From Lentilactobacillus parafarraginis DSM 18390 = JCM 14109 (GTDB lineage Bacteria; Bacillota; Bacilli; Lactobacillales; Lactobacillaceae): 64,000 bases of DNA. A program made the position numbers and the translations under genes. The stretch spans positions 1 to 64,000 of the forward strand of contig NZ_AZFZ01000004.1 of the NCBI RefSeq assembly GCF_001435895.1, given 5' to 3'. The notes beneath the pieces are model-generated. The model saw nothing but the letters and a program-made list of their open reading frames with translations, made no database searches and had not been told where the DNA came from. Numbering within the stretch: the first letter of the stretch is position 1; each line of letters begins with the position of its first letter. Below, piece after piece: positions 20,490 to 53,610 of this stretch.

Positions 20490-20728
20490 ACGTTAAAGCA
20501 TTGATCAAGAGAGTAGGCTGCTGATCTGTTTCAGAAAGAGAATGGTAAATGGAAAATTCTCACAGATGGTTGTTCGAAAGTAACTTGAGAGCTGTTCATT
20601 CGATTTACGAAGAGAATGAGCCGGTACTATCTGACCGTTATCAGGATACTGAGTGGGGCTCATTGCCCAATTTAGGTGGTACCGCGAACACTTCGTCCTA
20701 ATATTTTTTTAGGACGGAGTGTTTTTAT
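20490..20728 (+). promoter_or_regulatory. T-box leader (Val) controlling valS
   Basis: A tRNA-sensing leader. The conserved T-box bulge TGGTACCGCG is at 20677-20686. The lower stem I helix TCAAG/CTTGA is visible, with the loop-E half AGTA on the 5' side and GAA on the 3' side. The specifier codon just before CTTGA reads GTA (20580-20582), a Val codon that agrees with valS downstream. The terminator pairs ACACTTCGTCCTAA (20688-20701) with TTAGGACGGAGTGT (20709-20722), then T-run. Uncharged tRNA-Val should favour read-through. Together with the promoter this fills the 294-bp gap before valS. Confidence 0.93.
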
Positions 20729-29030: not shown

Positions 29031-29054
29031 GATTTTATAATTAAAAACAGATTA

Positions 29055-29318
29055 AAAGACTTTGATCAGAACCGCGTTTTCATTCAATTTACAGAGAGTT
29101 CACGATGGTGTGAAGTGAACAATGGTTGTTAATGCGTCACGTCTGGGAGTCATTCTCTTGAACTGAGTAGGGAGAAGCGGTGAGCACGTTATTGCTGAAG
29201 TTTAGTTTTCTAAACTCGTTGAGACTCTCTGTATGAGCAGAGGGTAAAGCTGAGGTGGAACCGCGAATAAAATCGTCCTCTTAGATCATTTTGATGATCT
29301 AGGAGGCTTTTTATTTTC
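29055..29318 (+). promoter_or_regulatory. T-box leader, first unit, probable His specifier
   Basis: The complete unit has stem I helices GACT/AGTC (29058-29061/29148-29151) and CAGA/TCTG (29067-29070/29142-29145) and an apical hairpin around 29098-29120. The codon just before the TCTG helix, in the position occupied by GTA in the valS leader, is CAC (29138-29140), a His codon. A stem III region with CGTTAT follows, then the T-box bulge TGGAACCGCG (29256-29265). The terminator pairs CCTCTTAGATCAT (29277-29289) with ATGATCTAGGAGG (29294-29306), then T-run. Hand folding makes the codon assignment moderate, whereas the T-box itself is certain. Confidence 0.85.
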
Positions 29319-29438
29319 TACCGACGATGGTGAGAAAGCTAAACTTCGTGAGGCAGCGGGCGTGAGCTTGTTGCGAAGTGAGGTGGAACCGCGAAAACTA
29401 TCGTCCTCTTGAGTGTTTAAACTCAAGGGGATTTTTTT
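29319..29438 (+). promoter_or_regulatory. Second, partial T-box unit (antiterminator and terminator only)
   Basis: A second T-box bulge TGGAACCGCG (29384-29393) with its own terminator, CCTCTTGAGT (29405-29414) pairing ACTCAAGGGG (29421-29430) and T-run 29432-29438. Only about 65 nt separate it from the first terminator, too short for a stem I. One imperfect stem (CTTCG...CGAAG, 29344-29378) sits in front, resembling a stem III. With the first unit it fills the 458-bp gap between minD and the transporter. Confidence 0.85.
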
Positions 29439-29453
29439 ATGGAGGGATGTCAA

Positions 29454-30098
29454 ATGATTCAATATATTATGCAAATTTTACCAGCGCTTTTAGCGGGAAC
29501 CAAAATGACCTTATCAATTTTCTTTTGGACGTTGATATGTTCGATTCCGTTGGGAGCCATTCTGGCACTGGGGTTGGTTAGTAACTTTAAACCCCTCGTG
29601 TGGGTCCTGAACGTTTACGACTGGTTGATGCGGGGGACGCCGTTACTACTGCAGCTCATTTTCGTCTTCTATGGGCTGCCAGTTATCGGAATCATTTTTC
29701 AGCGTTACGATGCTGCCATGGTTGCATTTATTCTAAATTATACGGCTTACTTTGCTGAAATTTTTCGCGGTGGTTTTCAATCCGTACCACGTGGCCAGTT
29801 TGAAAGTGCGCGGGTACTGCGGTTAACCTATGGCCAAACCATTCGAAAGATTGTGATTCCCCAAGTTTTCAAGATTGTTTTGCCATCAATTGGAAACGAA
29901 GTGATTAATCTGGTGAAGGATTCTTCATTGGTTTATGTCATCGGCCTTGGCGATCTGCTACGAGCCGGTAACGTCGCAACTGCTCGGGATGTTTCGTTAG
30001 TGCCGCTTGTCCTTGTTGGGATTATCTACTTGGCACTAACCGCTGTCTGCACGATTGTCTTGAAGATGATTGAGAAACGTTCGAATGTTTGGCGATAG
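29454..30098 (+). CDS. Amino-acid ABC transporter permease (probable histidine)
   Basis: A 214-residue HisM/GlnP-family permease with five hydrophobic helices. The EAA-type loop is FESARVLRLTYGQTIRKIVIPQ and the N-terminal motif is LIRGTPLL-like (WLMRGTPLLLQL). The start ATG 29454 follows GGAGGG at 29441-29446; the ATG at 29439 overlaps the terminator and ribosome binding site. First of three genes; the substrate is suggested as His from the T-box specifier, not from the protein itself. Confidence 0.88.
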   Translation: MIQYIMQILPALLAGTKMTLSIFFWTLICSIPLGAILALGLVSNFKPLVWVLNVYDWLMRGTPLLLQLIFVFYGLPVIGIIFQRYDAAMVAFILNYTAYFAEIFRGGFQSVPRGQFESARVLRLTYGQTIRKIVIPQVFKIVLPSIGNEVINLVKDSSLVYVIGLGDLLRAGNVATARDVSLVPLVLVGIIYLALTAVCTIVLKMIEKRSNVWR

Positions 30099-30110: not shown

Positions 30111-30746
30111 ATGTTAGAGATAAAGGGACTTACTAAAAAATTTGGCAGTAAAACCGTCATCAACGATTTTTCGATGACCGTCGCCGATAATGAAATTATG
30201 GCAATTGTTGGCCCGTCTGGTGCCGGAAAGACCACGCTTTTGCGTTGTATCACCGGCCTTGAACGGGTAAACGCCGGAGCTTTCTATTGGAACGGGAAAC
30301 AATTCGACCCGGTGAATCCGGATAAAAACGACACCATTATCGGCGTTGTTTTCCAGGATTACCAACTTTTTCCGAACTTAACCGTGATGGGTAACATTAC
30401 ACTGGCACCAACGTTAGTTAAAAAGCTGGGGGCTGATGAGGTGGAAAAGACCGCGACCGCGTTACTGGAGCGACTGGGGTTGGGCGGCAAAGAAAATCTC
30501 TATCCCTACCAACTTTCTGGTGGTCAGAAGCAGCGGGTGGCAATTGTGCGTGCGCTGGCAATGAATCCGAAAATTTTGTGTTATGACGAACCAACATCGG
30601 CTTTGGATCCGGCTCTGCGCGACGAGGTTGCCCAAATTATCCTGGATCTAAAGAAGCAGAAAATGACCCAGATTGTTGTGACTCATGATATGGATTTTGC
30701 TAAGAACGTCGCCGATGAAATTCAACAAGTTGAACAAATTCAGTAG
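30111..30746 (+). CDS. Amino-acid ABC transporter ATP-binding protein
   Basis: A 211-residue ATPase: Walker A GPSGAGKTT, Q-loop FQDYQLF, signature LSGGQKQR, Walker B ILCYDEPTSALD, switch His in VTHDM. It is about 30 residues shorter than GlnQ/HisP because it stops soon after the H-loop (NVADEIQQVEQIQ). No frameshift is visible, and short forms are known in lactobacilli. AGGAGGG precedes the ATG, and the permease and binding protein flank it at 12 and 14 bp. Confidence 0.9.
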   Translation: MLEIKGLTKKFGSKTVINDFSMTVADNEIMAIVGPSGAGKTTLLRCITGLERVNAGAFYWNGKQFDPVNPDKNDTIIGVVFQDYQLFPNLTVMGNITLAPTLVKKLGADEVEKTATALLERLGLGGKENLYPYQLSGGQKQRVAIVRALAMNPKILCYDEPTSALDPALRDEVAQIILDLKKQKMTQIVVTHDMDFAKNVADEIQQVEQIQ

Positions 30747-30760
30747 AAAGAAGGGCTAGC

Positions 30761-31612
30761 ATGCAAAAAGCATTAAAAAAGGCACCATTCATAGTTGCAA
30801 TCTTTTTGCTGGTGATCGTTCTTTCAGGCTGTCGGTTTGAATCACGGCATAAATTGGAAACCAATCCGGACACTTGGTCAATCATTTCGAAACAAAAAAA
30901 GGTTGTCATTGGTTTGGATGATAGTTTTGTGCCAATGGGATTCGAAACGAAGAGCGGAAAAATTGTGGGATACGACGTTGATTTGGCCAAGGCCGTTTTC
31001 AAACAATATGGCATCAAAGTTGACTTTCAGCCGATTGACTGGTCAATGAACGTGACTGAATTGCGAAATGGCACCATTGATCTAATTTGGAATGGCTTTT
31101 CAATGAATCCTGAGCGGGCCAAGAAGGTTACCTTCAGTGAACCGTATCTCACAAACAAGCAGGTACTCGTTACCAAAAAGAAAAACCACATTTATAATTT
31201 TGCTGATATGACCGGTAAGGTTGCCGGTGTCCAGGCCGGATCTGCGGGGGCAATGGACATTGATTCGAAGCCTAAACTGCTCAAAGATCGGATTAAAGAT
31301 CACAGCCCAATTCTTTATGATTCCTTCACCGAAGCCTTTATTGATTTGAATTCGAACCGGATTCAGGGCCTGCTCATTGATAGTATTTACGCTGGGTATT
31401 ACATTGGCCACCAGAAGAATCGGGCAACGTATCGAAGCGTTCCCAGCCAATTTCCTAAGGAACAGTATGGCGTGGGGATGCGAAAGGGTGATACCGAATT
31501 GAAGCACAAGGTTGATGCCGGGTTGAACCGGCTGGCTAAGAATGGTCAATTAGCTAAAATCAATCAGAAATGGTTTGGGACAAACGCGTATAGTCCACTG
31601 ATGACTAAATGA
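30761..31612 (+). CDS. Amino-acid ABC transporter substrate-binding lipoprotein
   Basis: A 283-residue extracellular binding protein of the SBP_bac_3 family. It has a lipoprotein signal (basic start, hydrophobic run, lipobox VLSGC), then VIGLDDSFVPMGFETKSGKIVGYDVDLAKAV, NGTIDLIWNGFSMNPERAKKV-type segments and a C-terminal LNRLAKNGQLAKINQKWFG. These residues define polar amino-acid binders. Histidine is proposed from the T-box. Third gene of the operon, followed by a strong terminator. Confidence 0.9.
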   Translation: MQKALKKAPFIVAIFLLVIVLSGCRFESRHKLETNPDTWSIISKQKKVVIGLDDSFVPMGFETKSGKIVGYDVDLAKAVFKQYGIKVDFQPIDWSMNVTELRNGTIDLIWNGFSMNPERAKKVTFSEPYLTNKQVLVTKKKNHIYNFADMTGKVAGVQAGSAGAMDIDSKPKLLKDRIKDHSPILYDSFTEAFIDLNSNRIQGLLIDSIYAGYYIGHQKNRATYRSVPSQFPKEQYGVGMRKGDTELKHKVDAGLNRLAKNGQLAKINQKWFGTNAYSPLMTK

Positions 31613-53400: not shown

Positions 53401-53404
53401 TTGA

Positions 53405-53610
53405 ATGGTTTAAGAATATGTCAGGTCCTGCTACTTTTCAGAAACGTTTTGGTTGATGTGAAAAACGATTTAGTTTACCTGATGCTCTCTTAACACACAA
53501 TTAAACACAAACCTGATGAATCAGGATAAAGTGGTTACGATTTAGCATCGTTGCAATCAGAGTGGTACCGCGCCAATCGGCGTCTCTGTTAGCAACGGTG
53601 CTTTATTTTG
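53405..53610 (+). promoter_or_regulatory. T-box leader (Ala) controlling alaS
   Basis: The T-box bulge TGGTACCGCG is at 53563-53572. Stem I has a lower helix GTTTAAG/CTTAAC and an upper helix TCAGGT/ACCTGA, with the specifier loop between them. The 3' loop strand contains GCT (53484-53486), an Ala codon that fits alaS. The terminator pairs 53544-53562 with 53584-53602 (three mismatches), then TTTATTTT. Confidence 0.92.

Follow-up and report, generated by a model that had tools for sequence, protein, structure and literature searches.

A candidate nested, strand-sharing T-box in which a single histidine decoder may serve two serial switches

Background

A T-box leader that carries two antiterminators and two terminators but only one stem I raises a simple question: what does the second switch read? 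Such a leader lies at 29053-29438 on the forward strand of the window (the whole stretch of 64,000 nucleotides analysed here, from Lentilactobacillus parafarraginis). It is located directly 5' of an operon which, on the same strand, encodes an amino-acid ABC permease (29454-30098), an ABC ATPase (30111-30746) and a substrate-binding lipoprotein (30761-31612). The initial annotation, made from the letters alone, suggested that the second unit could be a double lock on the same tRNA, a means of sharpening the response, or a degenerate copy.

That both units precede an amino-acid ABC operon is borne out by the ORFs and by a family search, in which all three proteins match ABC families for polar amino acids. 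Among the matches listed (for the ATPase, the best 25 of 186 families), no cut-off of a one-substrate equivalog was passed. The nearest named relative of the permease, from Lentilactobacillus, is 93% identical. The operon is predicted to encode a histidine transporter, with a hisY-like permease; PMC9413887 places T-boxes upstream of 77 hisYZX operons in Lactobacillales. Translation of the permease more likely begins at ATG 29454 than at the ORF-caller start (29439) because a GGAGGG (29441-29446) precedes the former while the latter directly abuts the second T-run.

Results

Two units, one stem I

Unit 1 is a full T-box, identified by Rfam at 29053-29283 with 97.3 bits (gathering score 93). The Rfam alignment places stem I, the decoder, at approximately 29053-29152, its specifier CAC (His) at 29138-29140, stem II with an AGTA S-turn at approximately 29150-29177 and the stem IIA/B pseudoknot at 29177-29196. 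The pseudoknot includes an F-box-like CGTTA (29187-29191), and its IIB pairing is a reading by eye. Stem III (29224-29245, from the fold) is followed by antiterminator 1 (29251-29280, from the Rfam alignment), whose T-box bulge TGGAACC (29256-29262) carries the UGG complementary to the CCA end of tRNA. Terminator 1 (29277-29317) comprises a hairpin at 29277-29306 and a U tract.

Unit 2 consists of a second stem III (29353-29374, from the fold, capped by a GUGA tetraloop at 29362-29365), antiterminator 2 (29380-29408) with a T-box bulge TGGAACC at 29384-29390, and terminator 2 (29403-29438, a hairpin at 29403-29432 with its U tract). Antiterminator 2 was delimited as a repeat of unit 1 and from a local Rfam match. 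The string TGGAACCGCG occurs in the leader at both 29256 and 29384, and over 32 nt the segments 29251-29282 and 29379-29410, spaced by 128, share 91% identity. Between 28950 and 29480 a terminator scan lists two T-run hairpins, 29277-29306 and 29403-29432, both on the forward strand, where shuffled sequences give a mean of 0.3. The two T-box bulges, each with its own terminator and T-run, are therefore confirmed as first annotated.

It also holds that only the first unit has room for stem I. Unit 2 has no space for a stem I with a specifier, and two complete T-boxes, each with its own stem I, were not found: the two motifs are only 102-131 nt apart across the 79 aligned rows described below. 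The proposed check, an Rfam search of each unit, succeeds for unit 1 and leaves unit 2 under the gathering score: 10.5 bits (E 6.3) in a search of 471 nt, and at best 24.8 bits (E 0.0005), as a truncated match, when 29300-29470 is searched alone. In the full-window output Rfam displays the leader as one T-box and misses unit 2. Matches of unit 2 to PyrR, NsiR1 and other Rfam families lie far under the gathering score and were attributed to chance.

According to PMC7583486, stem III is an integral and indispensable part of the sensing domain, and the purines that flank the discriminator take the form RRRxG-stem III-AA. Stem III of unit 2 is flanked by GAG (5') and GAA (3'); RRRxG is present letter for letter in neither unit of the window.

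Conservation among related loci

The related loci are the best 80 of 382 permease relatives from one scan, a sample biased to close relatives. Two T-box motifs lie upstream of the permease in 78 of them, the exceptions being L059 (one motif) and L108 (none). With 78 of 80 loci carrying both motifs, the second unit is not a product of chance, and the initial view of partial duplications as uncommon is not borne out for this leader among the loci examined. These 78 loci and the window make up the 79 rows, of which 70 are distinct after 9 duplicates are dropped.

Every one of the 79 rows has T-run hairpins at both terminator sites (median -23.5 kcal/mol for terminator 1 and -20.9 kcal/mol for terminator 2). 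The CCTC/CCCC string that belongs to the 3' arm of the antiterminator is likewise present in each unit of all 79. The specifier CAC was located in the same context by regular expression in 78 of the 79 rows and by eye in the last (L102).

For unit 2, stem III ends in a GNRA tetraloop, mostly GUGA, in 79/79 rows; in unit 1 such a tetraloop is present in 60/79. The conserved loop of unit 2 (29362-29365 in the window; L031-L110) suggests a tertiary docking partner. In L059 (Secundilactobacillus oryzae; permease at 2501) there is one discriminator, with a stem III loop, TGTGAA, that resembles unit 2. This locus can be read as an outer T-box devoid of the insert, which would fit a loss of the inner platform.

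The last base of UGGN is A in unit 1 (29256-29259) in 75/79 rows, including the window. In unit 2 (29384-29387) it varies: A in 38, C in 27, T in 9 and G in 5 of the 79 rows. The tRNA-His of the same genome (L113:375-448, reverse strand) has C73 together with an encoded G-1, so that N = A mismatches C73. The G-1:C73 pair of tRNA-His may make this base irrelevant.

A long-range helix between the decoder and unit 2

Directly 3' of the IIA/B pseudoknot lies a strand, S (29197-29211), which forms an inverted repeat with a strand in the linker of unit 2, S'2 (29333-29347); the two match at 93% of 15 nt. The first part of S can also pair locally with S'1 (29210-29217), forming a small hairpin in unit 1. 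S together with the loop of this hairpin pairs with S'2. S'2 is thus not merely a copy of S'1, because pairing in S:S'2 also involves the hairpin loop, and this loop is missing from S'1. This argument is weaker for the Levilactobacillus rows, where S, loop and S'1 are near-palindromic and S'2 resembles S'1.

In one ungapped register, 11 or 12 of 12 pairs form in 67 of the 79 rows and 8-10 in the other 12, the fewest (8 of 12) being found in L082 and L085. We compared each S with its own S'2 and with those of other rows, using a fixed register and the 70 distinct rows. Own partners pair at 11.80 of 13 positions compared with 8.09 for partners from other genera. At positions 6-13, the corresponding values are 6.81 of 8 for the own partner, 5.42 for the same genus with a different S and 3.23 for another genus. 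The observed sum was reached in 0/5000 permutations, both globally and within genus. In register, 85% of positions 6-13 are paired; with the strands slid against each other the figure is 31-48%.

On a permease tree of the 79 rows, we counted 40 double changes from one pair to another at these eight positions, compared with 2, 4, 5, 9, 12 and 13 in the slid registers. The same eight positions show 49 losses of pairing, 15 gains and 13 other double changes. A second tool, applied to the 70 rows as aligned by MAFFT, finds 94.1% of cells paired (28-54% slid) and a covariation score of 0.420, where shuffles have a mean of 0.158 and 0/500 score as high. With this alignment, pairs changed on both sides show no excess over shuffles (343 of 500). 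S is misaligned in four of its rows (L033, L035, L038 and L039), which were left in. Duplexes from long windows chosen independently of an anchor caught terminator arms and were excluded from the statistics. An absence of covariance support for unit 2, which the initial annotation named as its refutation, is true only of the full-length Rfam model; covariation within the leader is strong.

The energetics favour the long helix. For the window, the predictions are -20.2 kcal/mol for the S:S'2 duplex and -5.8 kcal/mol for the local S:S'1 hairpin; the hairpin is present in minimum-energy folds of early stretches of the leader. The corresponding medians over all rows are -14.9 and -6.6, and in 79/79 the duplex is the stronger of the two, with its loop cost not counted. 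Once the linker is present the ensemble probability of S:S'2 is 0.95-1.0, also when the 3' arm of terminator 1 is blocked. The antiterminator 1 helix, A1, is weak in these folds: its probability is 0.25 as long as terminator 1 has yet to be made, and 0.02 when the terminator 1 3' arm is blocked. The folds leave out tRNA, pseudoknots and kinetics.

Distribution in the genome and the phylum

The genome contains 47 T-box matches. The exact tandem pattern, with a spacer of 91-121 nt, occurs only in this leader, and a pattern with 85-115 nt retrieves nothing in the genome because the spacer here is 116 nt. Among the 30 of these 47 matches that were examined as loci, a second motif lies 45-160 nt away in L011 and L027; that in L027 was rejected, being on the opposite strand in a stretch with no visible T-box context. 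The window itself includes two other matches: a single full T-box at 20492-20703 (117.1 bits; specifier GUA (Val) by our own reading of the alignment) and a weaker one at 53402-53590 (58.5 bits, under the gathering score).

At the level of the order, a pattern with a gap of 83-113 nt matches 39/295 genomes. We examined 30 of these matches as loci and found a relative of the permease in 29; the remaining one, L141, also lacks T-box context and looks like chance. The same pattern matches 10/299 genomes of the class: seven from one family, f14, one (L125) also found in the order search, and two (L152 and L153) that have no T-box context and were rejected. Within f14, a shorter gap (65-95) matches 18/41 genomes. 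For the phylum, a gap of 75-105 combined with a longer second motif matches 23/348 genomes at 26 places, 24 of which have a CGTTA F-box-like string upstream. As a control, reversed patterns matched one genome in the class search and one in the phylum search.

Half-units elsewhere in the phylum are also found upstream of aromatic amino-acid genes. Ten downstream proteins from the phylum and f14 sets were compared with Pfam. They are three DAHP synthases, a chorismate mutase, an anthranilate synthase I-type protein, a TrpX-like binding protein (under the NCBIfam cut-off), two sodium symporters, an AMP-binding enzyme and a glycosyl transferase family 3 protein.

In the f14 loci (L145-L151, L154-L171) it is stem III itself that provides the shared strand, with its 5' arm and its loop. 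The specifiers read at six of them are UUC (Phe) in five and UAC (Tyr) in L154, and the three f14 downstream proteins examined are DAHP synthase or chorismate mutase. Among the phylum-level half-units (L172-L197) a hairpin of the type GGTATCGG/CCCGTACC often provides the exchanged strand, and this hairpin may represent a structural motif that recurs.

The preference for the own partner is similar in these sets. Own-partner duplexes were stronger than permuted ones (0/5000) for the Lactobacillaceae His set (70 rows), the order-level His set (26), the phylum-level set (19) and f14 (25). The own strand is the single best partner, with ties counted against it, in 17/70, 12/26, 6/19 and 5/25 rows, respectively. 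The tree control covers the Lactobacillaceae His set only. The test uses 44 of the 51 f14 and phylum-level rows: L168, L185 and L194 have no exact CGTTA, and in L172, L176, L179 and L184 the regular expression found no strand pair, so that these neither support nor refute the pairing. In at least L174 the distal strand was misplaced by the regular expression, and this row was left in.

Discussion

One decoder, two checks

The computation yields two discriminators, both conserved, and a covarying helix, S:S'2. If this helix forms, it joins the decoder to the second discriminator and holds the first in its loop. We consider it probable that the leader is a nested, strand-sharing T-box, in which a single histidine decoder serves two serial switches. 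The structural part of the proposed double lock on one tRNA is thereby well supported: the covarying helix, which had not been seen in the initial annotation, rejoins the decoder to discriminator 2.

The following sequence of events can be proposed. The decoder (stem I with CAC, stem II and the IIA/B pseudoknot) would capture tRNA-His. While only unit 1 has been transcribed, S would fold on S'1 and the decoder would offer the end of the tRNA to discriminator 1, where an uncharged tRNA at stem III and antiterminator 1 would block terminator 1. As the polymerase passes, S'2 would emerge and take S into the longer helix, looping out discriminator 1. Stem III and antiterminator 2 would then be placed with respect to the decoder as those of unit 1 had been, and the decoder could test the tRNA 3' end again, now with terminator 2 at stake. 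Checking one tRNA twice in series would reduce leakage and steepen the response; the sharpening suggested in the initial annotation would follow from such a pair of gates. We infer that the tRNA binds at unit 2 and that S passes from S'1 to S'2 during transcription; the same tRNA may stay bound throughout, the second check acting as proofreading.

The alternative that survives best, although we regard it as unlikely, is that S:S'2 has another purpose (for example, dismantling unit 1 after readthrough, or mRNA protection) and that terminator 2 is an attenuator of fixed strength that is not read by tRNA. The variable UGGN base of unit 2 would be compatible with this. It would not account for the retention by unit 2 of a T-box bulge and of a stem III with an invariant GNRA loop, nor for the equally invariant CCTC/CCCC antiterminator string, all of them needless in a plain terminator. 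In addition, no local 5' arm for the stem III of unit 2 is visible in the linker of the f14 leader L154; only the unit 1 strand could supply one.

It is much less probable that discriminator 2 acts alone, any uncharged tRNA binding the UGGN of antiterminator 2 independently of the decoder. Unit 2 does possess its own stem III and antiterminator, but specificity for the amino acid would be lost and the covarying helix left unexplained. Finally, that unit 2 is a degenerate copy, the remnant of a once complete tandem T-box, agrees with its missing stem I and its low Rfam score but is contradicted by its retention in 78/80 loci, by terminator hairpins at both sites in all rows and by the covarying long-range pairing, and can hardly be credited.

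A broader interpretation of the nested, strand-sharing arrangement is a strand-exchange riboswitch, in which a helix switch hands a tRNA-bound decoder from one aminoacylation-sensing platform to another as a kinetic proofreading of starvation, and which recurs in Firmicutes. For us the arguments for and against this are evenly balanced. If it is true, the recurring design has two kinds of hand-over strand: a hairpin after IIA/B (the His and phylum-level leaders) and the 5' arm of stem III (f14).

Riboswitch architectures are usually described as having one sensor per platform. One sensor serving two platforms would provide a steeper or proofread response at no cost of a second sensor, and the purpose of serial terminators would become directly testable by compensatory mutations. 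Second gates can go unnoticed with models based on stem I, RF00230 among them, as in the present leader, which Rfam calls a single T-box.

Comparison with known systems

In 2008, Vitreschak and colleagues reportedly described a structural class of T-boxes, new at the time, in which the terminator-antiterminator elements are duplicated. Its members are reported to have, as here, one sensor with stem I followed by two modules. On that definition the present leader probably belongs to the class and would be a mechanistic variant of it; the present analysis shows the long-range helix together with its covariation and the nested arrangement. We found no description of a shared strand in the open literature searched, which did not include the most relevant papers, and a prior description is possible.

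Tandem T-boxes (the trp and thrS leaders in PMC12452182 and the leaders of some Enterococcus His transporters in PMC9413887) resemble the present case in having serial terminators for one amino acid, and a sharper response has been proposed for them. The tandems described in PMC12452182 consist of two or more complete units of sensor plus platform, whereas here there is one stem I. PMC9413887 describes mostly a single T-box per region, with tandem riboswitches in five Enterococcus species, which may be full tandems or half-units. Pseudo-cooperative tandem riboswitches (PMC9481103) also place serial transcription gates under one ligand; those in the accessible part of that paper have an aptamer for each platform, and a type with one aptamer and two platforms was not found there. 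Compared with the canonical transcriptional T-box (RF00230), all of whose parts are present in unit 1, the leader described here has a second discriminator joined by S:S'2.
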